Below, one piece after another: positions 12,040 to 30,654 of a DNA stretch of 34,154 bases. Every line of letters starts with the position of its first letter. Positions within the stretch are counted from its first letter, which is position 1. Under the pieces are notes generated by a model. That model made no database searches. It had not been told where the DNA came from and saw nothing but the letters and a program-made list of their open reading frames with translations. The DNA is from Candidatus Kapaibacterium sp. GTDB taxonomy: Bacteria; Bacteroidota; Ignavibacteria; Kapaibacteriales; UBA2268. The position numbers were made by a program, and so were the translations under genes. The stretch spans positions 115,978 to 150,131 of the forward strand of contig JAOABA010000040.1 of assembly GCA_026418625.1 (NCBI GenBank). Direction: 5' to 3'.

Positions 12040-12170
12040 TCTTAACCTCATTATAAAAATGTTAATAATTTGTTAAGACAAAGAAAAATATTATTTATTT
12101 TGCTGTAACATTTTTTCTCATTCTGAATTTATATAGTCAATGAAAGGTAATTTTGTTTATCAATTTTTTT

Positions 12171-12175
12171 GGAGG
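12171..12175 (+). promoter_or_regulatory. Ribosome-binding site that decides the start at 12185
   Basis: GGAGG lies nine bases before the ATG at 12185 and downstream of the alternative in-frame codon at 12140, which excludes the longer reading. Confidence 0.8.
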
Positions 12176-12184
12176 TATAAAATA

Positions 12185-14692
12185 ATGAAGAAATTTTACT
12201 TGGCTTCAATGATGGTTTTGGCTCTTTTTCTGGTGATGAGCTTAAAATCATTTTCACAGCAACCACCTTATACACCCTTAAATTTTATGGCTGTTCAAGT
12301 AGAAACAGATAAGGGCAACAAGATTAAGTTATCTTGGAATAAGAATCCAGAAGGTCCTGCAGTAGAATTTTTCAGAATTTTCAGAGCTGAGGGTCAAACA
12401 GATGATTTATCACGTTTCAAAAAAATAGCTGATGTTAAAGCCGAAGAAAGTATTAGTGAATATGATTATACTGACTATCCCGGTGCAAATGGAAAATATA
12501 CCTATTATATTGTTGCAGTAAATATTTTCAATGAAGAGCTTTATTTCAGCGAAAGGACCGACTTTAAATTCATAAATTTCATCGGTTCTTATGTGATAAA
12601 AATTGTCTCCAAACCTAAAGAAACAGCGACAGTCGGGAAAGAATATGTTTATGAAATTGTTGCAGAAACTAATTTAACGGATAATTGCCCATTGAGATAT
12701 GAACTATATGGAGATTATCCTGATGGTATGACAATTAACAAACAAACTGGGAGGCTATCTTGGATTCCCAAAAAGGATGGGCGTTACACTATAAAAGTCA
12801 AAGTTTACGCTGACTGCGATAAAAATGTTGAACCCGCATATCAACAGTTTACTATTGTTGTTGGAACAGGTGTGAGCGGAAAAATTAAATTTGTAACTGA
12901 ACCAAATACAAAAGGTGAAATCGGAGTTCAATGGAGCTATAAATTCAAAGCTGAATCAGATGTAGACTGCCCAATTATTTATGTAGTTAATGCAGAAATT
13001 GATGGTCTCAACTGGGATAAGGAAACAAATACACTCACTTTCACTCCTCAGAAAAGTGGATATTATATTTTTAGAATAAAAGCATATCTGAAATGCGATG
13101 AGAGTGTCTATGCTGTCCAGGAATTTAAGGTTACAGTAGGAAACGTAGATGGTTACTGTGCTAAAATAGTTGGAACTGTTAAAGATGCAGAAGGAGAATC
13201 AATTGCATCTGGGACTGTCAGAGCTTGGTTAATTACAGATAATAACAAAGAAACACCAGTATATAAAACATCCATTGAGAGAGGTTTCTTTACTCTCAAA
13301 TTAAACGAAGGAAAATATATTATTGATGTTGATGGGGAGTTATTCTATCACGAGTGGTATGAGGATGCTGATGAAATGGCTGACGCTAAAAGAATAGATG
13401 TAAAATGCAAAGATGAACTCGAAATTCACATTGTTGTTGAAAGAAAACCAGAACCAAAATATTATGTTGTTTCTGGAAAAGTTCTCTCAGAGTCTGATAA
13501 CGAGCCAGTTTATTCAAAAGTTGAATTTATTATCGTTGAATTATTCAAAAACGAAGGTAAATATGAGAGTTTTGTAACTAAAACCAGAGACAATGGTGAA
13601 TATGAAATCAAACTACCCGATAAATGGACTTACAAAGTTAGAGCTGTTCCACTTGTCGACGGTTTTGCCGAGCAATACTATGATGGCGTTACATCAATTT
13701 ATGAAGCTGATATGATTGAACTGACACAGAATGTTGACGGAATTAATTTTAAATTGAAAAAACTCAACTCATATTCAAATGGATTGACAGGTAAAATGGT
13801 TGCTGATGCTACCGGGAACTTCATAAGAGGTCTTGTAACAGCTTATCTGGTTAGTGCAAGCGATGGAAATGAATATAAATTCTCAAAAGTTGCAGAAACC
13901 GATGCAGAAGGTAAATTTAAATTTACAAACCTTATTCCCGGCGATTATGTCTTAATGTCAGTTCCATTTTCAAACTCCTATGTCCCCGGTTATTATAAGC
14001 AAAACTCAGTTGCTGCTTTAAAATGGAGAGAAGCAACAAAAATCACCGTTGGTAATTCTATGCTCGACGAAGTATTTACCATTAGGCATAAGCTACGCAA
14101 TGGTTACAAGGGTATAATTAGGGTTAAAGGAAACGTAATTGATATTACATCAAACTTTGGTAAGGGTTCTGACAACAGCCAAGGCTCGAAACCAGTTGCC
14201 GGTGCTTATGTTTATGTTATTGATGAAAATGGAAACATTTCAGATTTCACATTCAGCAGCACAACAGGTTCATACGAAATGGTTCAATTAGGTTCAGGAA
14301 AATATACAGTCTATGTTGATAAAGTTGGGTATGGATCTTATTCTAAGCAAATTAATACTGATTACTCTCAAAACTATGATCTTACAGTTGATTTGCCAAT
14401 AATTCTTGAAGAACCTGCTTCGGTTGATGATAATCAGATTTTATCCGGAATGAACGTCTATCCATCTCCTGCAAGTGATTTCATTAATCTTGAATTAATC
14501 GGAGAATCGGGAATGCTGAATATTGGAATTTTTGATTTAACAGGAAATGAAATAATGACTGAGTCATTAGCAATCAGTCAGGGTGCTAATATTATTAAAA
14601 TACCTGTCAATAATCTATCAGCAGGGATTTATCTCATTAATGTAAGAGACGGAAAGCAGTTTAGAGCAAGTAAATTTAGTGTAATCAGATAA
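12185..14692 (+). CDS. T9SS cargo protein with Fn3, Ig-like and carboxypeptidase-regulatory-like repeats
   Basis: The start is set by GGAGG at 12171-12175 and by the signal peptide MKKFYLASMMVLALFLVMSL, giving 835 aa. The in-frame codon at 12140 lies before the ribosome-binding site and was rejected. In order I see: an Fn3-like domain (about 29-125); two putative Ig/cadherin-like domains (about 138-227, with YPDGMTINKQTGRLSWIP, and about 233-320); four carboxypeptidase-regulatory-like beta-sandwiches (about 325-415, 425-530, 540-640 and 650-735, each with a G-x-V...A-x-V pattern and a TD-x-x-G-x-[FY] turn); and a type A T9SS sorting domain in the last 80 residues (MNVYPSPASDFINLEL ... LSAGIYLINV). 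No catalytic motif is visible, so a structural or adhesive surface role is inferred. A strong terminator follows. Confidence 0.9.
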   Translation: MKKFYLASMMVLALFLVMSLKSFSQQPPYTPLNFMAVQVETDKGNKIKLSWNKNPEGPAVEFFRIFRAEGQTDDLSRFKKIADVKAEESISEYDYTDYPGANGKYTYYIVAVNIFNEELYFSERTDFKFINFIGSYVIKIVSKPKETATVGKEYVYEIVAETNLTDNCPLRYELYGDYPDGMTINKQTGRLSWIPKKDGRYTIKVKVYADCDKNVEPAYQQFTIVVGTGVSGKIKFVTEPNTKGEIGVQWSYKFKAESDVDCPIIYVVNAEIDGLNWDKETNTLTFTPQKSGYYIFRIKAYLKCDESVYAVQEFKVTVGNVDGYCAKIVGTVKDAEGESIASGTVRAWLITDNNKETPVYKTSIERGFFTLKLNEGKYIIDVDGELFYHEWYEDADEMADAKRIDVKCKDELEIHIVVERKPEPKYYVVSGKVLSESDNEPVYSKVEFIIVELFKNEGKYESFVTKTRDNGEYEIKLPDKWTYKVRAVPLVDGFAEQYYDGVTSIYEADMIELTQNVDGINFKLKKLNSYSNGLTGKMVADATGNFIRGLVTAYLVSASDGNEYKFSKVAETDAEGKFKFTNLIPGDYVLMSVPFSNSYVPGYYKQNSVAALKWREATKITVGNSMLDEVFTIRHKLRNGYKGIIRVKGNVIDITSNFGKGSDNSQGSKPVAGAYVYVIDENGNISDFTFSSTTGSYEMVQLGSGKYTVYVDKVGYGSYSKQINTDYSQNYDLTVDLPIILEEPASVDDNQILSGMNVYPSPASDFINLELIGESGMLNIGIFDLTGNEIMTESLAISQGANIIKIPVNNLSAGIYLINVRDGKQFRASKFSVIR

Positions 14693-15991: not shown

Positions 15992-15999
15992 TAAATTTG
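15992..15999 (+). promoter_or_regulatory. Candidate Bacteroidota-type -7 box (TAAATTTG)
   Basis: TAAATTTG matches the Bacteroidota -7 consensus TAnnTTTG. A TCTG (close to the -33 TTTG) lies at 15966-15969, 22 bases upstream. Transcription would begin near 16005, about 30 bases before the ATG at 16036. A TTG that extends the reading frame lies inside this box, which argues against that longer start. In AT-rich DNA such matches can arise by chance. Confidence 0.35.
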
Positions 16000-16035
16000 A
16001 TTGATTTAATTGCGTTGAAAAGCGATTTGTCTTAT

Positions 16036-18339
16036 ATGAAAAAAAATAAATTCAAATATCTACTGCTTTGTTTAGTATCAATCGCTTTGCTGTTTTTTTA
16101 TTCCAAACTAAATTGCCAACCATCTTCATTAATTTTCAACGATAAAACACCATCGGATACTGTTGATATGGGTTTGACCTTGAATGGTGTTCCTGTTATT
16201 ACAACATTTAATATATTTAATACTGGAACAACAGATTTAAGATTGTGGCCTACAAATATTTATTCGTTCGCTATAACTCCAACAAATATACCGGGGCATT
16301 CCGAAGATCATTTTGAGTTCGATCCTGTTACAGCACCCGATTTTTTAATCAAGTCTGGAGAAAGTAGAAAATTCTCTATTAGATATAATTCAACTCAATC
16401 GCCTGTTTTCCCTGCCGGGAAAAAATATGCACGTGCAAGAATTGGTTTAGCCGAGAATTTGCCCCTAAGCGATAATGACTTAGCAAAGGGTTATCGTGAT
16501 TTCATACTGATTGTTCGAAAAACAAATAAGTTCATAGATGGTTATGAAAAATTTATTAGTTTCGATTCAGTTTATATCCATCCTGTTGATACAATCAGAA
16601 AAATATGGAAGGTTCAGAATAATGTTAAAGAGGATTTAAACATTGAAAATGTAATATTTAATAGAATTCTACCTCGGACTAATCCACATCTATTTCAAAG
16701 TATCATAGAAACTCCATATACATTAACACCAGAAAACAGAACCGTTGATTTTATTATTAGATATTATCCTATTGAGCTTGGGTTAGATTCGGCATTTACA
16801 ACAATTGAATTTAAGCCTTATCCAAAAACTGATCCTGAAACAAAGGATAGTTGTTTTGTCAGCGTTTCAGGGGTAGGTGTTGAACAAAAATTATTCATCT
16901 TGAACGCAATAAATGCAAGCGTAAAAAGAGATACAATTGATATTGGCAATGTCAGGGTTAAAGATAACAAGGATATTGAACTTGTTTTTTTGAATAATGG
17001 AAATATTCCATTCGGAGCCATAAAACAAGAAATATTGGAAATTGGCTCAGAGGTTAGAGCTGACGGTTTTACTTTAACAAAAAAATTGAGCGATGTAACT
17101 CATCTTCAGCCTTCCAGAACTGATACAGTTAAAATAAGCTTTACACCACCTGAAAGAAAGAACTACCTTGTAAGATATATTATTGAAAGTGATATTTCCA
17201 AAAGAAAAATCTATGGTTACCCTGATTCGGTAAAAAAAATAATCTTCTATATCAAAGGAACTGGAGTCGAGCCATTTCCAATTATACAAGATACGATTGA
17301 TTTCGGCAGCATTGTTATGAATCGTGGTGACTGTCCGGCTCGAAGAGACACTTTATTGCCAATTTATAATCAAGGTAATCTAATTCTTGAAATCAAGAAA
17401 CTCGAAATTAAGCCTGAATTTCCCAACACTCCTTTCAGAATTTTAACAGAAAATATAAATATTCCGGCAAGGTCTGTCGACACTTTAAGAATTATTTTTG
17501 ATGCCCTTGACAGCCCACCAGATGATTATCAGGCAATTTTATGGATCTATTCAAATTCCACTAAACCCCTTGATACGATTAAAATAATCCTTAAAGCAAA
17601 GGGCGTAAAGCCAGATCCGATTAATATTTCGTTGCCTATGGAAATTAGAGCAAAACCCGGTAGCAGAATTGAAATCCCAATTTTAGTTGAAAAAGATAAA
17701 GTTTCACTGGCAAAAAGCTATACCGACACACTTGATTACGAACATACCCTTTTAAAATATATAGGTTATGAAAAAATAGGAACTGCTTCTGAGTTGGTTC
17801 AATTCACTAACTCCTTTATAAAAGAAGATGAAAAAGGGGGAAGGCTTTTCATTCAATTGAATGACAATAAATATCTTTTACCGAATGACACTTTGATAAA
17901 ATTGCGTTTTACTACTTTTTTAGGTGAAAAAATCTCAACACCTATTAATTTACTTAATCCAAAATTCGGCGATGGAATCTGCACAAACATTCTGACACCT
18001 CAAATTTCACGAGCTTTTTTCTCGCTTGACTCTGTTTGTGGTCTCGAATTCAAAGTCGGACCGAGGCAAAGTCAATTTATTTTCAGTCTTGATGATATTT
18101 ATCCTAACCCAACAAGCGAAAAAATTGAACTGAAATACAACATAGCATTTGAAACCGATGTTCAATTTGCAATCTATAATAGTTTCGGTGAATTGGTTTA
18201 TAATCATACTATTACCGGTCATCAATCAGGAGAATTTTCAAAGCTTATATCAACAGATAATTTTTCAAGGGGGCTTTATATTTTCGAGATGAGAGCCGGT
18301 ATATTCAGACAAACAAAGAATTTTTTATTGATTAGGTGA
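16036..18339 (+). CDS. T9SS cargo protein with ASH-like repeats and a cohesin-like domain
   Basis: With the ATG at 16036 the protein is 767 aa and begins MKKNKFKYLLLCLVSIALLF, a signal peptide. The TTG at 15997 would add 13 residues that hide the signal and overlap a candidate promoter box. Residues about 30-520 contain several ASH/HYDIN-like ('choice-of-anchor D') immunoglobulin folds. Each has DxGxV...I.N.G...L..................D.V.I.F.P spacing, for example DTIDIGNVRVKDNKDIELVF and DTIDFGSIVMNRGDCPARRD. Residues about 529-665 resemble a cohesin-like sandwich (RAKPGSRIEIPILVEKD). The last 85 residues are a type A T9SS sorting domain (DDIYPNPTSEKIELKY ... FSRGLYIFEM). No enzymatic motif is seen. 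The outer-membrane barrel gene follows 15 bp later, so the two are probably co-transcribed. Confidence 0.88.
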   Translation: MKKNKFKYLLLCLVSIALLFFYSKLNCQPSSLIFNDKTPSDTVDMGLTLNGVPVITTFNIFNTGTTDLRLWPTNIYSFAITPTNIPGHSEDHFEFDPVTAPDFLIKSGESRKFSIRYNSTQSPVFPAGKKYARARIGLAENLPLSDNDLAKGYRDFILIVRKTNKFIDGYEKFISFDSVYIHPVDTIRKIWKVQNNVKEDLNIENVIFNRILPRTNPHLFQSIIETPYTLTPENRTVDFIIRYYPIELGLDSAFTTIEFKPYPKTDPETKDSCFVSVSGVGVEQKLFILNAINASVKRDTIDIGNVRVKDNKDIELVFLNNGNIPFGAIKQEILEIGSEVRADGFTLTKKLSDVTHLQPSRTDTVKISFTPPERKNYLVRYIIESDISKRKIYGYPDSVKKIIFYIKGTGVEPFPIIQDTIDFGSIVMNRGDCPARRDTLLPIYNQGNLILEIKKLEIKPEFPNTPFRILTENINIPARSVDTLRIIFDALDSPPDDYQAILWIYSNSTKPLDTIKIILKAKGVKPDPINISLPMEIRAKPGSRIEIPILVEKDKVSLAKSYTDTLDYEHTLLKYIGYEKIGTASELVQFTNSFIKEDEKGGRLFIQLNDNKYLLPNDTLIKLRFTTFLGEKISTPINLLNPKFGDGICTNILTPQISRAFFSLDSVCGLEFKVGPRQSQFIFSLDDIYPNPTSEKIELKYNIAFETDVQFAIYNSFGELVYNHTITGHQSGEFSKLISTDNFSRGLYIFEMRAGIFRQTKNFLLIR

Positions 18340-18354: not shown

Positions 18355-19116
18355 TTGAAAAAAATATTTACAATCGTTATTTTGTTATTTTTTTTGATAA
18401 ATCTCCAGTATAAACTTTCTGGACAAGGATTTGATTGGCAGTATTCACCCCGATTACCTTTCGAAACACCAACTTTTTTTGTCGGCTTGAACGGGAATTT
18501 AGCTTATTATTTGCATAATGGTTCGATTGATTTCAGGGAGATATACAAATGCTGCACCTTTACTTATGGGGCTGGTTTTGGATCTATTTTCGGAATCAAT
18601 GCCGAATATTGGCAAACTGCAACAATTGCCCTTAGCGGTTCTTTGTCTTATATGACTGTAACTGGGGATTTTGAAGCAGATGGCGAAGCTCTTCCAGTTT
18701 ATCCCTCTGGTCTTTTCTACTATAAAAACGAATTTAACACAAAGCTTTCATATATCACAGTTGAAATGGATGCCAAATACAGGCTATTTTTAACCCATTT
18801 CTTTGCTGGAGTTGGTATTAGATTAGGATTTTTAGTATCAAATAAAAGCGAGTTCTTTGAAAAAATTGTTTCACCTCCTGAAGCAAGATTCAACGATGGC
18901 AGTCAAAAAAGAACTATTGCTAATGGGATTATCTCTGACATACAACCAATTTTCTTCACACCAAAACTAAATTTAGGCTATGATTTGAATTTAGGTTTGG
19001 GAACTTATTCTACTATTTCACTATCCGCAGGACTTCCAATCATCAACATTTCAAAAGATTCCGAATGGTTAAGCTGGATTTTTCAGCTTAACATAAAAAT
19101 TTTTAGAGGCTGGTAA
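18355..19116 (+). CDS. Outer-membrane beta-barrel protein (TTG start)
   Basis: A 253-aa predicted outer-membrane protein. It starts at TTG: GAGG at 18344-18347 sits seven bases upstream, and the translation from this codon begins with a textbook signal peptide (MKKIFTIVILLFFLINLQ). No in-frame ATG would keep that signal. The mature part shows alternating hydrophobic and aromatic strands with Gly-rich turns (FFVGLNGNLAYYL, ALSGSLSYMTVTG, HFFAGVGIRLGFLV, LNLGYDLNLGLGTYSTISLS). It ends in an aromatic residue, as barrel proteins often do. It follows the ASH/cohesin-like T9SS protein by 15 bp and may help anchor or export it. No named family is recognised. Confidence 0.8.
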   Translation: MKKIFTIVILLFFLINLQYKLSGQGFDWQYSPRLPFETPTFFVGLNGNLAYYLHNGSIDFREIYKCCTFTYGAGFGSIFGINAEYWQTATIALSGSLSYMTVTGDFEADGEALPVYPSGLFYYKNEFNTKLSYITVEMDAKYRLFLTHFFAGVGIRLGFLVSNKSEFFEKIVSPPEARFNDGSQKRTIANGIISDIQPIFFTPKLNLGYDLNLGLGTYSTISLSAGLPIINISKDSEWLSWIFQLNIKIFRGW

Positions 19117-19338: not shown

Positions 19339-22044
19339 ATGTTCTTTAAAAAGCTACGAAATTATTTTACAGCAGTGATTTTTACAATCCTGTTAAGCCT
19401 CAATTTGAAGGCACTTGATAATTCCGGTCCTGAGTTTATACTCGCGTTTCTGCCAAATTATACTGGAACAAGCACAGTTCAACTCCATTTAACTAGCGAT
19501 GTCGTTACAAATGTAACAGTTGAGTATCCAGTCAATTCTCCAACATTTACTCAAACAGTTGCTGTTTCTCCCGGTGCCGTTACAATAGTGAATTTACCAA
19601 ATTCAGCACAAAGCAATTGGTTGGATTTAAAGAATATAGCTGGAGCAAACAATTCAGTTAGAGCTTATTCCACTGATGGAAGAAATTTTGTTTGCTATAT
19701 GATTAATATTCAACCATTTACAAGCGATGCAGCACTTGGTTTACCTGTTATTGCATTGAATACCGATTATATAATTGCTTCATATAGACCTATATTTTCA
19801 GATGGAAGTTCATTTGTGATAACAGCAGTATATGATAATACAAATATTACAATAACCCCATCAGTAAATCTTAATGGAGGTAGAACAGCAGGAGTGCCAT
19901 TCAATATTACTTTAAATCGTGGTCAAGGGTATTTCAATACAGGGACAACTAATTCTCAAGCTGGGGACGTAACTGGGACTATTATTACTTCTGACAAGCC
20001 AATTCAAGTAACGAATGGAGAAAGATGTACTAATATCCCACCAGGATACTATGCATGCGACCATATCTTTGAGGTAGCCCATCCTATTCAATCGTGGGGA
20101 CTATCTACGCCTGTTGCTAATCTTCCTTTTAGATCGAGTGGCACAGTTTATAGAATATTAGCATCTCAGGATAATACAACAATAAGAAGAAATGGAACTG
20201 TTATTGCAAATATAAATCGAGGACAATATTTTGAACCTGCTCCACTAACAGGGAATCATCTATTTGAAGCAGACAAACCCATATTTGTTGTTCAATATAT
20301 GTCAGGGCAGGATTTTGGTGGAAGTGGAACAGGTGATCCAGCTATGGGTAATATGATCCCATCTGACCAATATAAATTGGGCTATACTTTTTCAACTGTT
20401 GGAGGAAGTCAATTTTCTCAAAACTTTGTTTCGGTTTACGCACAAAATTCTGATATAGGAACATCAATGAGCATAAATGGTGTCCTTGTTCCTCCAGCTT
20501 CTTTCACCCCAATACCCGGAACAACTTTATCAGCAGCTACAGTTCCTCTTACATCAGGGAGCCATACTACACGTTCTGCTAACAAACACGGAATTACAGT
20601 TGAAGGATACAACAACTATGATTCTTACCTTTATCCCGGTGGAGCTTCATTTACCTTCATAAATATTTTTGGCGACACAATCCCACCACAATGCTCTGCC
20701 ACAAGGGTTGGCGATGAATTTCAAGGTGTAGCAAGAGATACTTATGATATTGACAAAGGTATTTACTTTGTCCAGCTTGCACCCGGAAGCGTCAATCTTC
20801 AATTAACAGTAACACCATTTACTATTGGTGATAAGACTGTTACATTTACAGTAACAAGAATTGATCCTAATCTTGATGCCTCTGGGGAAGTAGTAGTTAC
20901 TGATGGTGCAGGTAATACCTGCTCAAGCCCAATAGTCTTTACAAATGCATTACCACCAACCGTTGTTACACTGGGTGTTAACAGCTTAGGAGGAACGTTT
21001 GCCGATGTTGGTGGAGACGTTACTGACGATGGAGGTGATCCAGTAACTGAGAGAGGTATTGCTTGGAGCATAACAAATTCCAATCCTACTATTGCAGATA
21101 ATGTAATTACCTCAGGTAGTGGTGTTGGTTCATTCAATGCTATGATTTCATCATTACCACCGGGAACTACTGTTTACTATAGAGCTTATGCAATAAACAA
21201 CGGTGGAACTGGTTATGGAGATGTCCTTACATTTACAACACCCTCGGCTGGCAATATTGTCATTTCACTCTCTACTAAAGTTGTTTGCGAAGATCAACCT
21301 GTTGATCTCGGTTCACCTGACGCGATTACTGGAGGATCTGGTTCTTATCAAATCAGATGGATTCCAAATGTTGGTTTATTAAATGCAAACACAATGAATC
21401 CAACCTTGACAAAAGCAAAATTCAGCGGATATTACATTCTTGAAGTTACTGATTATGTTACTGGCGAATATGCCCAATCTGTTATGCTTCTAATGGTTAA
21501 AGAGAAACCTGATGTTTCTTTCCCAACAACCAAATACACTATTACAAGAGGACAATTTGTTAATATTGGTGATGGTATGGCAATCAGGAACGGTAAAGAG
21601 CCTTATACATTCAGATGGACCGACAAAATGGGCTTCAATTCTACTTTGCAAAACCCAAGAGTTAACCCATCTGTCACTACAAGATATTTCTTGATTGTTA
21701 CAGATGCTGATGGATGCCCCTCGAGTGAATATACAATTATTGTCCAAGTTTTAAGAAGAAAAGCAGCAGATGAAGATAAACTAGTTAAATTCAATTTTGG
21801 TGATGTTGCTGTTTACCCAAATCCTGTTAACGGGCAGTTTACAATCAACGCTGACTTTGGAGTTGAAACTGACTTTGAATTGAAGCTAACAAATCTTCTT
21901 GGGCAGGAATTCTTAAGATATTCTGAAGCAAGGATGTCTGTTGTTGAGCAAACATTTAATGTTGAGACATTACCAGCTGGTGTTTATATGTTACATTTCA
22001 AAGCTAATGATGAAACAAAAGTATTTAAATTAATAAAAAATTAA
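19339..22044 (+). CDS. T9SS cargo protein with IgGFc-binding-like domain, Fn3 and PKD-like modules
   Basis: A 901-aa secreted protein. A signal peptide ends near residue 25 (LSLNLKA). Residues about 30-440 resemble the IgGFc-binding N-terminal domain: a Ser/Thr/Asn-rich beta fold with repeated phrases such as LNTDYIIASYRP, ITSDKPIQVTNGE and ADKPIFVVQYM, and a GDPAMGNMIPSDQY segment. After a linker come an Fn3-like domain (about 539-634), two PKD/Ig-like domains (about 637-720 and 723-806) and a type A T9SS sorting domain (819-901, VYPNPVNGQFTINADF ... LPAGVYMLHF). The part from the Fn3-like domain to the end is strongly similar to the end of the next gene. In animals the IgGFc domain is a mucin-like fold; in bacteria it is associated with adhesins, so adhesion is an inference only. 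Confidence 0.88.
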   Translation: MFFKKLRNYFTAVIFTILLSLNLKALDNSGPEFILAFLPNYTGTSTVQLHLTSDVVTNVTVEYPVNSPTFTQTVAVSPGAVTIVNLPNSAQSNWLDLKNIAGANNSVRAYSTDGRNFVCYMINIQPFTSDAALGLPVIALNTDYIIASYRPIFSDGSSFVITAVYDNTNITITPSVNLNGGRTAGVPFNITLNRGQGYFNTGTTNSQAGDVTGTIITSDKPIQVTNGERCTNIPPGYYACDHIFEVAHPIQSWGLSTPVANLPFRSSGTVYRILASQDNTTIRRNGTVIANINRGQYFEPAPLTGNHLFEADKPIFVVQYMSGQDFGGSGTGDPAMGNMIPSDQYKLGYTFSTVGGSQFSQNFVSVYAQNSDIGTSMSINGVLVPPASFTPIPGTTLSAATVPLTSGSHTTRSANKHGITVEGYNNYDSYLYPGGASFTFINIFGDTIPPQCSATRVGDEFQGVARDTYDIDKGIYFVQLAPGSVNLQLTVTPFTIGDKTVTFTVTRIDPNLDASGEVVVTDGAGNTCSSPIVFTNALPPTVVTLGVNSLGGTFADVGGDVTDDGGDPVTERGIAWSITNSNPTIADNVITSGSGVGSFNAMISSLPPGTTVYYRAYAINNGGTGYGDVLTFTTPSAGNIVISLSTKVVCEDQPVDLGSPDAITGGSGSYQIRWIPNVGLLNANTMNPTLTKAKFSGYYILEVTDYVTGEYAQSVMLLMVKEKPDVSFPTTKYTITRGQFVNIGDGMAIRNGKEPYTFRWTDKMGFNSTLQNPRVNPSVTTRYFLIVTDADGCPSSEYTIIVQVLRRKAADEDKLVKFNFGDVAVYPNPVNGQFTINADFGVETDFELKLTNLLGQEFLRYSEARMSVVEQTFNVETLPAGVYMLHFKANDETKVFKLIKN
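20955..22044 (+). repeat. C-terminal module, copy 1 (shared with 25966-27056)
   Basis: About 360 codons encoding Fn3-like, two PKD-like and T9SS sorting domains align nearly end to end with the tail of the following gene. Shared phrases include SPDAITGGSG, FSGYYILEVTDY, TGEYAQSVMLL, PTTKYTI and TIIVQVLRRKA. The similarity also shows at the DNA level over parts of the module. Confidence 0.9.
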
Positions 22045-22069
22045 TTCTGTAAAATCGATGTTGTTCCTT

Positions 22070-22102
22070 GAGGCTGTCTTGTTAGACAGCCTCTTTTTTT
22101 TT
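22070..22102 (+). terminator. Rho-independent terminator after the IgGFc-like gene
   Basis: GAGGCTGTC and GACAGCCTC form a perfect 9-bp stem around a six-base loop, followed by nine T residues, 25 bp after the stop codon. Confidence 0.92.
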
Positions 22103-22181
22103 CTGTTAAACAAAATTAATAAATAATTATTAGGTAATATACAATAATATTTTTAAATTCCATTTTAAAAATAACCTATTT

Positions 22182-22185
22182 GAGG
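22182..22185 (+). promoter_or_regulatory. Ribosome-binding site of the SBBP-repeat gene
   Basis: GAGG lies five bases before the ATG at 22191. This supports that start, which is also where the signal peptide begins. Confidence 0.65.
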
Positions 22186-22190
22186 TTCCT

Positions 22191-25100
22191 ATGAAATTAA
22201 AATTGTTACTCTGTAGCTTAATCCTTGTAGTTATATTACCAAAATGTTTAATATCAAGGACTAATTTTACAAAAAATGAAATTAGTTTCATTGAAAACAA
22301 AGGTCAGATAATTGACCAGAGCGGAAAAATCAACAAAGAGGTACTATTTATAGCAGAAGTCAGCGGCGGAAGCATATTAGTTAAGCCAAGCGGGATCTCC
22401 TTTACTCAGATAAAGACAGATGGCTCACAAAAAAGTTCAAATCGTGATAAGAGATTATCATTATCTAACGGAAAAAATGATATTCTTCAGACATCACAGA
22501 TAGAAAAAGAAACTAAATTTGATTTCTATCGGGTTGATATGGAGTTTAAAAGCTCTAACAAACAAACTGATATTAAAGGTCTTGAATTGCTACAGGATTA
22601 TAACAATTATTATCTTTCTCAATGTCCTGAAGGCATTACACACGTCAGAAAATTCAAGAAAGTGCGTTACGAAAATGTATATGACAAAATTGACTTTGTT
22701 CTTTATGTAAATTCTTCTGGCAAAGTTCAATATGACTTTATTGTTAAACCCGGAGCTAATCCCCAAAACATAAATTTTGCTTTTCAGGGTGCTGAAAGCA
22801 TAAAAATCAAGGATGATGGAAGTTTAATTGTCAAGACACCCTTCGGAGATATTGAGCAAGGGAAACCTCATTCTTATCAGGATAGTCCTGTTCAATCTGA
22901 ATTTATTTTAAACAAAGATAATTCAATATCATTCAAGGTTGGAGATTATGATCAAAATAAGACTCTTACAATAGACCCTCCGACAAGGATCTGGGGAACT
23001 TATTATCAGGGTAATAATTACGAAACCGGGACATCAGTAGCAGTTGATAGTTATGGTAATGTTTATATGGCTGGAGAAGCATTTACAACATATAATATAG
23101 CAACTACTGGTGCCCATCAAAGCAGCTCTGGAGGCTATCGAGATGGTTATATCGTAAAATTCAATAGCGACGGAGAGAGACAATGGGGAACTTACTATGG
23201 TGGTTCACAATATGATCAATTTAATGATATTATTATTGATGCTTCAAATAATATCTATGCTGTTGGACAGACTTCTTCAAACTCGGCAATAGCAACTCCG
23301 GGTTCACACCAATCAACATGGAATGAAACAACTGAAGGATTTATTGTAAAATTTAATACATCTGGGGTAAGGCAATGGGGGACTTATTATGGTGGTTATG
23401 ATTGGGATTGGTGTAGCTCTATTGATGTTGATGCGTCTGGTAACATATATGTTACAGGGACTACTATGTCAAACAATGGTATTGCAACTGCTGGATCGCA
23501 CCAAAGCACTTATGGAGGTGATTATGCTGATGCTTTTCTTGTTAAATTTAACAGTTCGGGTGTAAGACAATGGGGAACGTATTATGGTCAATCTGGTGAT
23601 GGTGAATGGGTTGAACCGGGCTCTGAAGAGGGCATATCAGTTAGTGTTGATCCGAGTGGCTATGTTTATTTAGGTGGACATACTTATTCTCAAGGTATGG
23701 CAACAGCTGGAAGTTATCAATCATCATTAGCTGGCGGATCGGATGTTTTTCTTGTAAAATTTAATAGTTCCGGTGTTAGGCAATGGGCTACTTATTACGG
23801 GGGTTCAGGAGAAGAATTTTGCAATAGAATTGATAATGATTCTTACGGGAATATTTATATAAGTGGAATAACATTATCAACAAATGGTATCGCTACAACA
23901 GGTGCACATCAAACAACGCATGCTGGTGGGGATTTAGATGGATTCTTGGTGAAGCTTAATTCCTCAGGTTCAAGACAATGGGCTACTTATTATGGTGGTG
24001 ATGATTATGAAGGTAATGCCAAAGTCTTTGTTGAAAGCGATAACAAAATACATCTTGTTGGTTCGTCCTATTCCACTAATCAGATAGCAACAACAGGTTC
24101 TCACCAATCTACTTACGGTGGTGGATGGGGTGATGGCTTCTGGGCGGAATTTAATTCCTCAGGAGTTAGACAATGGGGCTCATATTATGGTGGCTATGGA
24201 GAGGATAAATTGAACGGTATCTGTGTTGACAACAATGGTGATTATTTTTTAAGTGGAAGTACAACATCTTATACTGGTATTGCAACTGAAGATGCCCATC
24301 AAACAGAGGTTGGTATGGGAGAAATTGCTGCCTTTCTAGTAAAATTTGGCGGAGAGGAAGGCGAACCTCCACCAACAATAACAATCACTAATGTAAGTAA
24401 ATCTGCTGTTTGCTGTGGTGATGATATACAAGTAACTTTTACAACATCAAGCTCATTTGGTGATGGAAATATTTTTGATATTGAAATATCAAATCCCGAG
24501 GGTAATTTTCTTATTTCTCCTCTCATTTTAGGTTCTTTCGAGGCTACTGAAGGTGGGACTTTCACTGTAACAGTCGCATGTTCAACTGATATTGGAGATG
24601 GACATAGGATTAGAATAGTAAGCACATTTCCTGAAGTTGTTAGTGCTGATAACGGTTCTGACATAAAAATTGTCGAATATCCAACACCCCAAATTACTGG
24701 TGAATTCTTTGTTTGTCCATTTAATTCATACATTTATAGAGCAAATGAAATCAATGGGACATACAAATGGTTAGTTGAAAATGGAACAATTATCGGCTCC
24801 TCAACAAATCAACAGGTGGAAGTAGTTTGGAATAACCCAAATTATAACGGAACGATAAAACTAATAGAAACTAATGAAGGAGAATGCACAGATAGTATTT
24901 CAAATACTGTTATTGTCTTTGATCTTCCTAAACCTACTGTGTATGGGGACGAAGAATTATGCTTAAATCAAGAAGGAGACTATTTTGCTTACATATCAAG
25001 TGGTGAATTTTTCGCATTTAAACAAAATGATACGCATACATTTAAATGGGTTGCCGATGATGGCGGAACAATTATTGGACCTTCAAACGAGGAGGATGTT

Positions 25101-27056
25101 AAAGTCCTTTGGCATAAAGCAGGCTTAAGAACCATTAAGGTTATAGTTACAGATTTATGGGGCTGCGCTGACTCAGTTGAATTCGAAGTTTTAGTTCATA
25201 GCTTACCAGAAAAGCCCGAAATTACCTCAAGCCTTGATATGTTGATGTCTAATTGCACTGATATTAATCAATGGTATCTTAATGGAAATCCTATTTCAGG
25301 AGCAAATAATTATATTTATTTCCCAACACAAACTGGATATTATCAAGTTCAATGTATGGACGAAAATGGATGTGAGTCAGAACTTTCTGATGTATATTTC
25401 TATCAGATTGCTTCGAATTCAATAACAATTACAAGCGTATCAGGAACAAGCTTCTGCACGGGTAATAATTTGAGTGTAACAATTGAAACAACAGGATCTT
25501 TTACAACAGGTAATGTGTTCTCGTTGCAACTGTCAGATAGGTTTGGAAGCTTTTTAAATCCAACAGTTCTTGCCACGATGAATGGTCCATTAGTTAACTC
25601 AATGAATGCAACACTTCCCCATACATTACTCTCTGGAAATGCATACAGATTAAGAGTCATTTCAACTAATCCTGCTGTTACTGGGACTGACAACGGTAGT
25701 AACATTACAATCGGTCAAACACCAACTCCACAATTTACTGGAAATACACAAGTTTGTATAAATCAGACTATTCAATACAGTGCAAATCAGTTCGATGGAT
25801 CCTATCAATGGCAGGTTACCGGCGGAACAATTCAAGGATCATCAACAAGCGATAAAGTAACAGTAAAATGGGGAAATACACCTCCTGCAAGTATCACATT
25901 AATAGAAACATCATCATTTGGCAATTGTCAGACTATTGTTTCAACGCCAGTTCAATTTGTATGTTTCCCGCCTGATGTTCTCACTGTTGGAGTCTTAAAT
26001 TTAAGCGGAACTAATGCCAATCTCGCTGGAAATGTAACAGATGATAACGGTTCACCCGTCACTCAGAGAGGTATTTGTTGGAGTATTTATAACTCTAATC
26101 CAACGATTGATGATTATATCACATCAGAAGGCACCGGTTTAGGTGAATTTAACAGCATAATATCTAACCTACCTCCCGGAACAACTATTTTCTTCAGAGC
26201 TTATGGAATTAACGAAGCCGGAATTGGTTATGGAGATGTTCTAACATTAACCACGCCAAGTCTGAATATGATTGAGATTAACTTAAGTCCAAAGGTTGTT
26301 TGTGAAGATCAGCCTGCAGATCTTGGTTCGCCCGATGCCATTACTGGAGGCTCTGGAGAATACAATATTAGGTGGATTCCAAGGACAGGTTTGATAAATG
26401 AATTCACAATGAATCCAACTTTACTAAGAGCCAGATTCAGTGGATATTATATACTTGAAGTTACTGATTATCAAACCGGTGAATATGCACAGTCAGTAAT
26501 GTTGCTTCTCGTCAAACAGAAACCGGATATTTCGCTCCCAACTACCAAATATACCATTAAAAGAGGGGAATCGGTTAATTTGGGAGACGGATTGGAACTG
26601 AGGAATGGAACACCTCCCTTCACTTATCTTTGGACCGATAAAATAAATTTCCGCTCAGAGGAAGCCAACCCAAGGGTAACACCACAAGTTACAACAAGAT
26701 ACTTCCTTACTGTAACTGACGTTGATGGGTGTTTTTCTGATGAATGGACAATAATTGTTCAGGTCCTAAGAAGAAAAGCATCAGAGGGTTCAGCTTTAGT
26801 AATTGGTAGTGGAACCATTCAAATTTATCCTAATCCGGCAACTTCTTCATTTGTTGTAAATGCTAATTTCGACGAAGATAGTGATATCGACTTGAAATTA
26901 TTTGACATCTTAGGAAGGGAAACTATTAGTTACAATAGAAATAATGTTACTGAAATTGAAGAAAGCTTCAATATTGAAGGTTTAACATCAGGAATATATC
27001 TGATTAAACTGAGAATTAACGGTGAAGAAATGATTTACAAGCTCATTAAACCATAA
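22191..27056 (+). CDS. Giant T9SS cargo protein with SBBP beta-propeller, Ig/PKD modules
   Basis: A 1621-aa secreted protein, the largest here. A signal peptide spans about 1-22. An N-terminal conserved domain runs from about 30 to 260, opening with FIENKGQIIDQSGKINKEVL (the DUF7948-type start seen before SBBP repeats). Residues 267-720 hold seven repeats of about 65 aa, each with W[GA][TS]YYGG, a D.xGN[IV]Y..G strand, GIAT.G.HQS and F[LI]VKFNSSGVRQ. That number fits one seven-bladed propeller. Next come Ig-like and PKD-like domains, including an internally duplicated pair (about 729-909 and 1077-1256). The tail (1259-1621) holds an Fn3-like domain, two PKD-like domains and a type A T9SS sorting domain (IYPNPATSSFVVNANF ... 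LTSGIYLIKL), shared with the previous gene. A surface or adhesive role is inferred; no enzyme motif was found. Confidence 0.92.
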   Translation: MKLKLLLCSLILVVILPKCLISRTNFTKNEISFIENKGQIIDQSGKINKEVLFIAEVSGGSILVKPSGISFTQIKTDGSQKSSNRDKRLSLSNGKNDILQTSQIEKETKFDFYRVDMEFKSSNKQTDIKGLELLQDYNNYYLSQCPEGITHVRKFKKVRYENVYDKIDFVLYVNSSGKVQYDFIVKPGANPQNINFAFQGAESIKIKDDGSLIVKTPFGDIEQGKPHSYQDSPVQSEFILNKDNSISFKVGDYDQNKTLTIDPPTRIWGTYYQGNNYETGTSVAVDSYGNVYMAGEAFTTYNIATTGAHQSSSGGYRDGYIVKFNSDGERQWGTYYGGSQYDQFNDIIIDASNNIYAVGQTSSNSAIATPGSHQSTWNETTEGFIVKFNTSGVRQWGTYYGGYDWDWCSSIDVDASGNIYVTGTTMSNNGIATAGSHQSTYGGDYADAFLVKFNSSGVRQWGTYYGQSGDGEWVEPGSEEGISVSVDPSGYVYLGGHTYSQGMATAGSYQSSLAGGSDVFLVKFNSSGVRQWATYYGGSGEEFCNRIDNDSYGNIYISGITLSTNGIATTGAHQTTHAGGDLDGFLVKLNSSGSRQWATYYGGDDYEGNAKVFVESDNKIHLVGSSYSTNQIATTGSHQSTYGGGWGDGFWAEFNSSGVRQWGSYYGGYGEDKLNGICVDNNGDYFLSGSTTSYTGIATEDAHQTEVGMGEIAAFLVKFGGEEGEPPPTITITNVSKSAVCCGDDIQVTFTTSSSFGDGNIFDIEISNPEGNFLISPLILGSFEATEGGTFTVTVACSTDIGDGHRIRIVSTFPEVVSADNGSDIKIVEYPTPQITGEFFVCPFNSYIYRANEINGTYKWLVENGTIIGSSTNQQVEVVWNNPNYNGTIKLIETNEGECTDSISNTVIVFDLPKPTVYGDEELCLNQEGDYFAYISSGEFFAFKQNDTHTFKWVADDGGTIIGPSNEEDVKVLWHKAGLRTIKVIVTDLWGCADSVEFEVLVHSLPEKPEITSSLDMLMSNCTDINQWYLNGNPISGANNYIYFPTQTGYYQVQCMDENGCESELSDVYFYQIASNSITITSVSGTSFCTGNNLSVTIETTGSFTTGNVFSLQLSDRFGSFLNPTVLATMNGPLVNSMNATLPHTLLSGNAYRLRVISTNPAVTGTDNGSNITIGQTPTPQFTGNTQVCINQTIQYSANQFDGSYQWQVTGGTIQGSSTSDKVTVKWGNTPPASITLIETSSFGNCQTIVSTPVQFVCFPPDVLTVGVLNLSGTNANLAGNVTDDNGSPVTQRGICWSIYNSNPTIDDYITSEGTGLGEFNSIISNLPPGTTIFFRAYGINEAGIGYGDVLTLTTPSLNMIEINLSPKVVCEDQPADLGSPDAITGGSGEYNIRWIPRTGLINEFTMNPTLLRARFSGYYILEVTDYQTGEYAQSVMLLLVKQKPDISLPTTKYTIKRGESVNLGDGLELRNGTPPFTYLWTDKINFRSEEANPRVTPQVTTRYFLTVTDVDGCFSDEWTIIVQVLRRKASEGSALVIGSGTIQIYPNPATSSFVVNANFDEDSDIDLKLFDILGRETISYNRNNVTEIEESFNIEGLTSGIYLIKLRINGEEMIYKLIKP
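22989..24352 (+). repeat. Seven tandem SBBP repeats
   Basis: Seven in-frame units of about 195 bp encode the propeller blades. The junction phrase SSGVRQWGTYYGG or a close variant recurs at each boundary. Units 3, 5 and 6 are the most alike; unit 4 carries an extra six to eight residues (GDGEWVEPGSEEG), and unit 7 is the most diverged. Confidence 0.9.
24375..24920 (+). repeat. Internal Ig+PKD module, copy A
   Basis: It encodes TITITNVSKSAVCCGDD through the end of a PKD-like domain. It matches copy B at 25419-25960 in order and phrase: TITxxS/C start, DNGSDIKI against DNGSNITI, PTPQITG against PTPQFTG, GTIIGSST against GTIQGSST, and LIET. Confidence 0.8.
25419..25960 (+). repeat. Internal Ig+PKD module, copy B
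   Basis: Second copy of the two-domain module at 24375-24920. About 500 bp of other PKD/Ig-like sequence separates the copies. Divergence is high enough to show the duplication is not recent. Confidence 0.8.
25966..27056 (+). repeat. C-terminal module, copy 2 (shared with 20955-22044)
   Basis: Fn3-like, two PKD-like and sorting domains collinear with the tail of the previous gene, with few gaps. The next terminator hairpin also shares the AGGCTGTCT start with that gene's terminator. Confidence 0.9.
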
Positions 27057-27075
27057 ATCAATCAAACTATCATTC

Positions 27076-27106
27076 AAAAAGGCTGTCTCACAAGGGCAGC
27101 CTTTTT
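27076..27106 (+). terminator. Rho-independent terminator after the SBBP-repeat gene
   Basis: AAAAAGGCTG and CAGCCTTTTT form a 10-bp stem, extendable by a wobble pair. The loop is about 11 bases, and the descending arm ends in the T run. It lies 19 bp after the stop and isolates dnaE from the surface block. Confidence 0.85.
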
Positions 27107-27180
27107 AATTCAAATTTGTTCAAAGAGTATATAAAAAAATTTATATTTTGCACCTGCTTTTGTTTGTAGAAGGGGGAAAA

Positions 27181-30100
27181 ATGGCAGATTTTGTTCATCT
27201 GCATAATCATACACACTATTCTTTATTAGATGCAGCTTGCACAGTTGATACATTAGTAAAAGCCGCAGTCGAAGATGGACAAAAAGCATTGGCGCTGACA
27301 GACCACGGAGTTATGTTCGGCTGTCTTGAATTTTACGATAAAGCAAAGAAAAAAGGCATTAAACCAATTCTTGGATTCGAAGCTTATGTCGCTAATGGTA
27401 GCAGATTCGATAAAACAGCTGGTAAAAAGGACACAAAAAAGAAAAATTATTTCCATTTGCTTCTCTTAGCAAAAAATCTTCAAGGTTATAAAAATCTTAT
27501 CAAGCTTACTACTTTAGCCCATACCGAAGGCTATTATTATAAGCCTCGAATTGATGAGGAGTTGCTCGAAAAATATCACGAAGGAATAATTGCCTGTTCA
27601 GGTTGTATTAATGGAGTTGTTAATGCTCATTTAGTTTCAGGCGATTACAAACTTGCTAATGAAAAAGCTAAATATTATCAGCAACTTTTTGGTGATGATT
27701 TTTATTTAGAACTTCAGCACCACCATCTTTCCGAGGATGAAGTAATTTTAAAGGAAATACCCAAAATTGCTCAAGATTTGAATATTAAAATGGTTGCATC
27801 CAATGATGTTCATTATATAAAGCAAGAACACGCCATCGCTCATAATGTCTATCTTTTTATCAAAGATGCCACCGCTTCAAATTCTGGTCAGATGGACATA
27901 CGGCAGCTCAGATACAGAACCCCTGAAATGTATTTCAAGTCAAGCGAGCAAATGATTGAGATTTTCAAAGATTTTCCGGAAGCTATTTCCAACACAATAG
28001 AAATAGCAGAAAAATGTGAGCTGGAATTCGAGAAAAAGAATTTTATGCCTGCTTTTCCTCTGCCAGAAAAAGATAAACACCTATCTCCTGATGAATATCT
28101 AAAAAAACTTACTTATGAAGGATTAAAACAGCGTTTCAAGGAGATAACCCCGGAAATTCAGGAACGAGTTGATTACGAACTTAGCGTTATAAAAAATATG
28201 CAATTCCCCGGATATTTTCTTATTGTGCAGGATTTCATCAAAGCTGCAAAGGATATGGGAATAAGAGTTGGTCCGGGGCGTGGTTCTGCTGCAGGTAGTC
28301 TTGTTGCTTATGCACTGGGCATAACAAATATAGACCCGTTAAAATATAATCTTCTTTTCGAAAGATTTTTGAATCCCGACAGAATCTCAATGCCCGATAT
28401 AGATATTGATTTCTGCGATGTCAAAAGAGATAAAATCATAGAGTATGTTAAACAAAAATATGGGCAATCAAGTGTTGCCCAAATTATTACTTTTGGTCAA
28501 CTATCGAGCAGATTAGTCCTTAAAGATGTTGGCAGAGTATTAGGGGTTCATCATAGCGAAATCAATAAAATTACTTCTAAAATACCTGTCGTTCTTGGCA
28601 AGGTAACCCCACTTGAATCAGCTCTTGAACTTCCCGATTTACAGGACTTAAAAAATACCTCTGATAGAAAATTACAAGAATTGATAGAATATTCAAAACT
28701 TCTCGAAGGTCTTTATAGAAATACATCTACCCATGCAGCCGGAATAGTCATTACTCCCGGAGATGTTGATGAATTTGTTCCTCTTTATAAACCATCTTCC
28801 CAAAAAAATAACGGAAATGAAGTTGCCACTCAATATAGTATGAAAGACCTTGAAAAGGCTGGTCTTTTGAAAATGGACTTCCTTGGCTTGAAAACTCTCT
28901 CTGTGATTGATAGAACCCTTGAACTAATAAAAAAAGATTTCGATATTGATATTGATATTGATAATATTGACCTCGAGGATGAACTTACTTATGATTTATT
29001 CTCTAGAGGAGAAACAAAAGGGGTATTCCAGTTTGAATCAACTGGTATGCAGGAATATTTAAGGCAATTGAAGCCAAGAAACATTGAAGAAATTGCTGCT
29101 ATGAATGCTCTTTATCGTCCCGGACCGATGAAAAACATACCCGAATATATCGAGAGGAAGTTTGGCAGAAAGAAGATTGAATATCTTCATCCGGTGATGG
29201 AAAAATCCCTCAAAAGCACTTATGGAATAATAGTCTATCAAGAACAGGTAATGCAGATATCAGTTGATTTTGCAGGTTTCACCCTTGCCCAAGCTGACAA
29301 CTTAAGAAAAGCTATGGGCAAAAAAGACCATAATGCAATGGACAAGATGAAACCTCTATTTATAGAAGGTGCTATCGCAAAAGGACACGACAAAAAATCA
29401 GCCGAGGAACTTTTCGAACTCTTTCGTAAATTCGCTGATTACGGCTTCAACAAGGCACATTCAATAGCATATTCTGTTCTGGCTTTCCAAACTGCTTGGT
29501 TAAAAGCTCATTATCCTGCTCAGTTTTTGGCAGCATATATGTCGAGCGAAATGGGAAATCTTGATAAAATTGTGATTTTTATGGAAGAAGCCAAGAATTT
29601 AGGCATTCCAGTCCTTCCCCCCGACGTGAATAGGTCTGAAGCAACTTTTACTACTTATAATAACACTATACTCTTTGGTTTAGCTGCCATAAAAAATGTT
29701 GGCTTAAATGCAGTTGAAAGCATTATCGAAGCAAGAAAAGAAAAGCCTTTCAGCTCTTTTTTTGATTTTGTTGCCAGAGTTGACACAAAATTAATCAACA
29801 AAAGAACCCTTGAATCACTCGTTTGTGCTGGGGCTTTTGATTCTTTGATGAAAAATGGAAGAGCAACCTTGTTTGCTGCAATTGAGTCTGCCCTTGAATT
29901 TGGCAGAGCAGTTCAGGAGAAAAAATCAATAAATATGGATAGTTTATTTATGAGTAGTGGTGACGCTCTCCCAATATCCGAACCAAAATTGAACATTATT
30001 CCTGAATGGGAGCAAAAGAAGATTTTAGAAAAAGAAAAGGAATTTCTTAATTTTTATATCAGCGGTAATCCATTATATCAATACCAACCTCTTATTAATT

Positions 30101-30654
30101 CTTTATCAACTGTATCCTTGAGTGATTTTGAAACAAATTTAAATGGTGAAATTGTCAGGGTCTGTGGTTTAATAACTAATGTAAGAACTGGTATTGATAA
30201 AAATCAAAAACAAATTGCTTTTGTTAAACTCGAGGACATAACAGGTTATGCCGAATGTATTTTCTGGAGCGATAATTACCTGAAATATAGAGATTTATTG
30301 ATAGAAAATACATTAATTATTGTAATCGGAAAGCTTGATACCGATGGAAAAACAATGAAGATAGTAGTTAACGAAGTTCTTCAACCTGATGAGGCAGTAA
30401 AAAAATACACTAAGGGTATTAATATCAATATTTTTGCCGAGCAATTTGAAGCTGATAACCTTTATAAATTTCAATCAATTTGCAATGATTCTAATTCAAA
30501 TATTAAAATTACATTCAACACTTTTTTCGACCAAGAAAAAACTAAATTCTCAGTATATGTAGCAGAAAAAATTAATCTACCAATAAACGAGCATAGCATT
30601 AGCATAATGACATCAATTTTTGGTAGAAATAATATTAAATTTGAGCCCAAATAA
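27181..30654 (+). CDS. dnaE: DNA polymerase III subunit alpha
   Basis: This is the replicative polymerase subunit, 1157 aa from the ATG at 27181. AGGGGG sits just upstream, and a TTG at 27148 that would add 11 residues was rejected because the family starts at ADFVHLHNHT. The PHP domain opens with HLHNHTHYSLLDA. The catalytic aspartates are D406 and D408 in SMPDIDIDFCDVKRDK and D566 in KMDFLGL. The GPGRGSAAGSLVAYALGITN loop and the palm/fingers core follow, then the tandem helix-hairpin-helix region. An OB-fold domain lies near 990-1080 (VRVCGLITNV ... GYAECIFWSDNY). The length fits a DnaE1-type enzyme. A short GATATT microsatellite encodes DI repeats in a variable linker. It heads a tightly spaced plus-strand run. 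Confidence 0.97.
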   Translation: MADFVHLHNHTHYSLLDAACTVDTLVKAAVEDGQKALALTDHGVMFGCLEFYDKAKKKGIKPILGFEAYVANGSRFDKTAGKKDTKKKNYFHLLLLAKNLQGYKNLIKLTTLAHTEGYYYKPRIDEELLEKYHEGIIACSGCINGVVNAHLVSGDYKLANEKAKYYQQLFGDDFYLELQHHHLSEDEVILKEIPKIAQDLNIKMVASNDVHYIKQEHAIAHNVYLFIKDATASNSGQMDIRQLRYRTPEMYFKSSEQMIEIFKDFPEAISNTIEIAEKCELEFEKKNFMPAFPLPEKDKHLSPDEYLKKLTYEGLKQRFKEITPEIQERVDYELSVIKNMQFPGYFLIVQDFIKAAKDMGIRVGPGRGSAAGSLVAYALGITNIDPLKYNLLFERFLNPDRISMPDIDIDFCDVKRDKIIEYVKQKYGQSSVAQIITFGQLSSRLVLKDVGRVLGVHHSEINKITSKIPVVLGKVTPLESALELPDLQDLKNTSDRKLQELIEYSKLLEGLYRNTSTHAAGIVITPGDVDEFVPLYKPSSQKNNGNEVATQYSMKDLEKAGLLKMDFLGLKTLSVIDRTLELIKKDFDIDIDIDNIDLEDELTYDLFSRGETKGVFQFESTGMQEYLRQLKPRNIEEIAAMNALYRPGPMKNIPEYIERKFGRKKIEYLHPVMEKSLKSTYGIIVYQEQVMQISVDFAGFTLAQADNLRKAMGKKDHNAMDKMKPLFIEGAIAKGHDKKSAEELFELFRKFADYGFNKAHSIAYSVLAFQTAWLKAHYPAQFLAAYMSSEMGNLDKIVIFMEEAKNLGIPVLPPDVNRSEATFTTYNNTILFGLAAIKNVGLNAVESIIEARKEKPFSSFFDFVARVDTKLINKRTLESLVCAGAFDSLMKNGRATLFAAIESALEFGRAVQEKKSINMDSLFMSSGDALPISEPKLNIIPEWEQKKILEKEKEFLNFYISGNPLYQYQPLINSLSTVSLSDFETNLNGEIVRVCGLITNVRTGIDKNQKQIAFVKLEDITGYAECIFWSDNYLKYRDLLIENTLIIVIGKLDTDGKTMKIVVNEVLQPDEAVKKYTKGININIFAEQFEADNLYKFQSICNDSNSNIKITFNTFFDQEKTKFSVYVAEKINLPINEHSISIMTSIFGRNNIKFEPK
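28942..28965 (+). repeat. GATATT hexanucleotide microsatellite inside dnaE
   Basis: Three perfect GATATT units and one GATAAT encode alternating Asp-Ile just after DFLGLKTLSVIDRTLELIKK. The repeat is in frame, so copy-number changes would add or remove two residues. Confidence 0.7.

Follow-up and report, generated by a model that had tools for sequence, protein, structure and literature searches.

Two neighbouring genes of Candidatus Kapaibacterium sp., here called A and B, carry unrelated heads on a common C-terminal tail, and we consider it likely (probability of roughly 0.7) that a 3' block comprising the stalk, the sorting domain of the type IX secretion system (T9SS) and probably the terminator was copied between them before the two genomes of this genus split. 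Four observations argue for such a copy: a collinear tail with an edge, the presence of no more than two full copies in the genome, sorting domains that are nearest relatives, and a rare terminator stem. In the course of events we propose, the 3' block of one gene (an Fn3-like part, two stalk parts, the sorting domain and probably the terminator) would have been copied onto the end of its neighbour and joined there to an unrelated head, presumably in the direction B to A, after which the copies would have drifted apart, further in the sorting domains than in the stalk. With one export signal and one stalk in common through the tail, the two heads would be displayed alike.

The two genes and their heads

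The window analysed here is a stretch of 34,154 nucleotides on contig 41 of a draft genome of 3,303,346 bases in 58 contigs. Open reading frames and Pfam matches place gene A (901 aa) at 19339..22044 and gene B (1621 aa) at 22191..27056, both on the forward strand. Gene A consists of an IgGFc_binding head (PF17517, residues 130-422, E 3e-64, 217.5 bits versus a gathering score of 25.6), the shared tail and a T9SS sorting domain; a match to this family by sequence carries no implication that the protein binds IgG. Gene B begins with a head made of DUF7948 (PF25778, residues 33-263, E 4e-56, 190.8 bits versus a gathering score of 27) and a propeller of SBBP repeats (PF06739, 61.1 bits versus 20.5), followed by a stalk region, the shared tail and its own T9SS sorting domain. 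The middle of B (24288-25187) has 39-53% identity to its orthologue as against 62-92% in the other windows of B, and is by this comparison a fast-changing stalk region. The next gene downstream (27148..30654, forward strand), which we take to be dnaE, also adjoins the orthologue of B in the congener and so anchors the position of B.

Both proteins have N-termini that are hydrophobic as judged by eye, and the type IX secretion system is predicted to export them to the cell surface. The T9SS sorting domain also ends three upstream genes (8584-11256, 12140-14692 and 15997-18339), which together with A and B makes five such genes close together on one strand.

A preliminary description of this DNA had called the N-terminal parts of A and B unrelated, and the Pfam assignments bear this out: the heads belong to different families, each with relatives elsewhere. 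Vertical homology of the whole genes, with heads that diverged past recognition, has next to no probability in our estimation: nothing was found in its favour, and each head is assigned to a curated family of its own with an E value of 1e-56 or better.

The shared tail, its sorting domains and its terminators

By protein and DNA alignment the shared tail spans residues 539-901 of A (20953..22041, forward strand) and residues 1260-1620 of B (25968..27053, forward strand). The two copies are collinear over about 362 residues, with 61% protein identity over residues 1-361 of a 362-residue query that started at A residue 540. In the DNA comparison of the two genes a single block was found (69% over 790 columns, E 2.5e-87), covering 20986..21770 in A and 26001..26785 in B, both on the forward strand, and stopping in A at the linker before the sorting domain; no second significant match between the genes lay outside it. 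The earlier claim that the last 360 or so codons are collinear homologues holds. Identity varies along the tail, from 61/97 (63%) in the Fn3-like part to 70/90 (78%) in the next part and 57/86 (66%) in the one that follows, then 3/10 in the linker and 29/79 (37%) in the sorting domain.

Mapping the edges of similarity, as the preliminary description had suggested, put the left edge at A 539. This edge is fairly sharp, with 2 of 7 aligned positions agreeing just before it, and it lies close to where the relatives of A's head stop aligning with full-length A (no later than residue 535 in 17 of 20, at 548-562 in the other 3), which places it at a domain boundary. Default blastp begins the A-B alignment at A 529 (60%), and without composition correction the alignment extends at low similarity to A 350 (46% over 558 overall).

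The tail had been described as Fn3-like, PKD, PKD and sorting domain. Of these labels only the last rises above Pfam cut-offs within the tail, and no PKD or fn3 model matched A or B with an E value of 0.1 or below. Sub-threshold partial matches to PF16656 (E 0.068) and NF049889 (E 7e-7, 28 bits versus a cut-off of 600) were obtained for the Fn3-like part of A, and the tail may be a remote member of the PKD or Fn3 families. A structure model of the tail built from a three-sequence alignment reached a mean pLDDT of 45, an unusable fold, and a sequence search of solved structures gave four hits with an E value of 1 or below, each confined to the sorting domain.

The T9SS type A sorting domain (PF18962, TIGR04183) is C-terminal in both proteins, at residues 825-901 of A (21811..22041, forward strand; 50.9 bits) and residues 1545-1620 of B (26823..27050, forward strand; 41.5 bits), the TIGR04183 cut-off being 23. 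This family has 150 matches in the genome. When A's sorting domain was searched against the genome and its congener, congener B scored 74.9 bits and B 69.9, the next match falling to 39.7 (32 matches in the own genome); with B's sorting domain the order was congener B at 154.7 bits, A at 69.1 and then 57.0. By these scores, and leaving congener B aside, A and B have each other's sorting domain as nearest relative, though the two have diverged. A separate origin of the two domains, which their 37% identity had brought into consideration, is rejected on these bit scores.

Each gene is followed by a hairpin. That of A, AGGCTGTCTTGTTAGACAGCCT at 22071-22092 followed by a T run (hairpin feature 22070..22093, forward strand), was recovered by pattern, terminator scan and folding (-18.6 kcal/mol, z -6.3), and that of B, AGGCTGTCTCACAAGGGCAGCCT followed by TTTTT (27080-27102, forward strand), by pattern and folding (-17.5 kcal/mol, z -6.1) while being absent from the terminator scan. 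The strict stem AGGCTGYCY/GRCAGCCT occurs at 3 places in the 3,303,346 bases, the A and B terminators among them (control 0), and the looser stem AGGCTG/CAGCCT at 9 (reversed-pattern control 3). Of the strict sites, the remaining one (C15:47318) lies about 1.6 kb from the nearest T9SS ORF found, which ends at C15:48912, and one of the loose sites (C48:11683-11706) follows a T9SS ORF ending at 11731. A similar hairpin was seen in another genus, where it follows a subtilase gene whose tail is a distant one (L094). The terminators of A and B, described earlier as sharing sequence, have in common a stem type that is rare in the genome; the stretches between stop codon and hairpin showed no likeness by eye. 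Since the hairpin likeness had been picked out after it was seen, we count it as support, short of proof. The terminator between A and B also suggests that B would have a promoter of its own.

Age, direction and later history of the proposed copy

Among the 54 genomes searched one belongs to the same genus (G004, the congener). Its orthologue of B adjoins dnaE, is cut by the contig start at B residue 106 and has 71% identity over 1518 positions. The tail of congener B has 58% identity to A and 80-90% to B depending on the part, and the tail tree takes the form ((B, congener B), A) with supports of 0.996 and 1.000. The copy is not a recent one, since B is more similar to congener B (86%) than to A. 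We read this as a tail copied before the split of the two genomes of this genus, with the caveat that, owing to a gap in the congener where A would lie, the early origin rests on one tree. The proposal of a 3' module duplicated between neighbours is accordingly retained in part: the duplication stands, whereas a recent or demonstrably continuing exchange does not, A falling outside B and its orthologue.

The head of A had no close match in the congener, the best reaching 31%. The congener's orthologue of the ORF at 18355 (86%) ends 326 bases before a contig end, so A could fall in the gap that follows. At this contig end (L073 7202-7233, G004:C325) an inverted repeat whose two 15-base arms match perfectly was noticed by eye; lying near where A would begin, it would fit both the end of a mobile element and a terminator. 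The congener does have another gene with an IgGFc head (L173, 344-4801, G004:C265; 1486 aa), containing stretches 30-33% like the stalk of the A and B tails, so that such a stalk on an IgGFc head may predate the A/B event.

With regard to direction, B lies upstream of dnaE in both genomes and would for this reason be the likelier donor or older resident. The arrangement is not one of the family at large: neither A nor B was found, at E 1e-5, in 20 stretches upstream of dnaE from other genomes, six of which are short and end at contig ends. One of the dnaE regions (L135) holds a propeller-like stretch on the reverse strand with 27-29% identity to the head of B.

The sorting domains of A and B share 37% of their residues versus 84% between the orthologues, and the block may for that reason lack a single history. 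We regard as a serious if doubtful alternative an older duplication followed by repeated gene conversion between the A and B stalk cores in the own lineage, which would keep the stalks alike as the sorting domains drifted. Identity between A and B is 69% in the core and 36% in the sorting part, while between B and its orthologue it is 86% and 83%, and the ratio dAB/dBG is 2.6 in the core versus 5.5 in the sorting part (bootstrap 0.009, permutation p 0.029). Core sites where A equals B and not the congener exceed the reverse (18:7 residues, 39:23 synonymous codons, and 85:52 nucleotides with p 0.006, these last being non-independent sites), as gene conversion would have it, and two other surface genes have equal lineage rates (33:31 and 10:9). 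In the sorting part the counts of A=B versus A=congener are 4:6 residues and 2:3 synonymous codons. At synonymous codons B and its orthologue agree in the core at 0.456, no better than random (0.428), but at 0.71 in the sorting part and 0.54 in dnaE (random 0.465). However, the core ratio of 18:7 does not differ significantly from the 43:40 of the other genes (Fisher p 0.11), and the N-terminus of dnaE, in which the congener has more private changes (4:0, 1:0, 2:0, 3:1 and 3:1 against five outgroups), leans the same way as the core. No significant converted tract was found in the core either (p 0.19 for the longest run and 0.20 for the best window). On these weak tests, the greater likeness of the stalk core would be a hint of later A-B exchange.

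Tails among neighbouring genes and related genomes

For the own genome we surveyed 140 T9SS ORFs in 959,187 bases around most of its listed sorting domains, counting genes as adjacent at a gap of at most 1500 bases (46 adjacent and 9684 other pairs). Five of the 46 adjacent pairs shared the tail only, 12 were whole or partial duplicates and 29 neither. Tail-only sharing was found in 55 of the 9684 other pairs (Fisher p 8e-6), the class being a crude one, since the match in one of its non-adjacent pairs extends over about 1600 residues. Label shuffles gave 0.29 expected adjacent tail-only pairs and at least five in 0 of 5000, and gap limits of 500 and 3000 or a 100-bit limit still returned 5 pairs and 0 of 5000 shuffles. 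The strongest of the five pairs is A/B (470 bits), followed by two on C53 (251 and 196), a pair on C33 (247) and, with a weak match, one on C15 (26%, 102 bits). Those on C53 belong to a triple of adjacent T9SS genes (L153 693-8278, G000:C53) with tails of about 350-430 residues at 35-37%, in which one head has a laminin-G-like match, another a beta-helix match and the third no match.

This enrichment among neighbours argues that the adjacency of A and B is no coincidence, and the genome points the same way in that 18 tail matches were found there, of which only A and B are covered in full, the others being partial. The preliminary description had named a widespread tail as the finding that would make adjacency coincidental, and neither result favours it.

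The 12 whole or partial duplicates do lend some weight to a tandem duplication of the entire gene with later replacement of the head in one copy, which sequence separates only partly from copying of the 3' block. We hold it to be unlikely, as no significant trace of B's head or of the region before its tail was detected in A, and the relatives of A's head carry other tails.

The C33 pair (L150 768-7106, G000:C33:113767-120105) pairs the same two kinds of head, a DUF7948-SBBP gene being followed by an IgGFc gene. In both, the sorting domain is preceded by an L-type lectin domain (41% over 351 residues), and in the congener the first gene's end (78%) lies beside the beginning of the second (85% over 488 residues), so the junction is conserved up to the contig end that precedes the second gene's tail (L179). 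Scans of 14 genomes gave 45 DUF7948 and 138 IgGFc matches (137 used), and the two occurred within 10 kb on one contig twice, both times in the own genome and both times with matching tails, in a count that leaves out the congener's split pair. The probability of at least two of five by chance is 7e-4, assuming 2800 genes and in a test made after the pairs had been seen. One might read this as IgGFc-head and DUF7948/SBBP-head proteins being surface partners that work together and are kept on the same stalk so as to sit in one place, a pair that would swap its tail as a set, with the tail as an address for co-display and more than a spacer. We consider this reading rather improbable, given that the other 43 DUF7948 matches, some of them at contig ends, have no IgGFc neighbour and that the C33 IgGFc-lectin protein scores higher with an unlinked gene than with its neighbour; if it were true, physical partners would be predicted among proteins of unknown function. 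The idea that the C33 lectin pair arose by recent exchange between neighbours finds no support, as this score is 290 bits with the unlinked lectin gene on C39 versus 247 with the neighbour and a full-length IgGFc-lectin relative is present in G001 (45%). An unlinked DUF7948-SBBP-lectin gene (L181, G000:C39:67336-70503) has 37% identity to the C33 gene over nearly its full length.

Across the genomes searched, some tail match was obtained in 54 of 54, many of the matches listed being to the Fn3-like part alone. Twenty proteins were fetched and 14 of them scanned with Pfam, and the heads on their distant tails were of the types subtilase, sortilin/BNR, choice-of-anchor I, DUF7948-SBBP, fn3 or PKD arrays and Ig_7. 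Two very long open frames with Fn3-like copies or a distant tail were also observed (G031:C98 and G017:C75, the latter L079; 8400 and 5276 residues). It had been asked whether the same tail sits on other heads in relatives: distant versions do, at 27-35% among the long matches listed other than B and congener B, and the only close one among them is that of congener B. Such varied heads on distant tails would suit an independent uptake of a common tail from a large pool by A and B, with their adjacency a coincidence, which we judge very unlikely, because the A and B tails resemble each other far more than either resembles any further tail found, and because of the enrichment among neighbours.

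In a tree of 23 tails most group by head type, such as the subtilases L076, L077, L080 and L082 (0.939), a BNR group (0.997) and the fn3 arrays (0.971). Three head types turn up at further places in the tree as well, namely a subtilase (L094), a DUF7948-SBBP protein apart from B (L093) and one with a weak sortilin match (L078). The head of L094 has 36% identity to that of L077 and its tail lies apart, so the histories of head and tail differ there. The expectation that trees of heads and tails would disagree is matched by L094 and runs against the grouping of most tails by head type. As far as these trees go, tails have moved within the family, rarely as far as seen, and for the most part keep to one type of head.

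In T9SS type A CTD proteins it is normal for one kind of sorting domain to carry many different heads, and A and B both end in such a domain above curated cut-offs; what they share in addition is a stalk of about 270 residues, whose close likeness is limited to the two neighbours. In Porphyromonas gingivalis, rgpA, kgp and hagA have common C-terminal adhesin blocks at unlinked loci with very similar copies. These genes resemble A and B in joining different heads to shared C-terminal blocks in T9SS substrates, whereas the A and B loci are adjacent and their copies old (69% DNA). Partial (3') tandem gene duplication and domain shuffling are known in bacterial surface proteins, and A and B, with homology confined to one gene end, an edge, neighbouring positions and a full tail found nowhere else in the genome, belong to the same class of mechanism; they differ from the general case in probably including a rare-stem terminator and in the recurrence among neighbours of the same genome. 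The event is thus of a known kind, in which T9SS proteins are changed by partial gene duplication and domain shuffling. Among the papers listed by the literature searches, mostly freely accessible ones, no title or abstract opening dealt with tails common to adjacent T9SS genes.

What we observe is one local event and an enrichment in one genome; the fitting of new heads to a tail as a strategy could be read into them. A and B give a local, roughly dated example of how T9SS bacteria may make new surface proteins, with a neighbour's stalk-and-export end being copied onto an unrelated head, and, to judge from the enrichment in this genome, proximity on the chromosome may be one way by which T9SS substrates are assembled.
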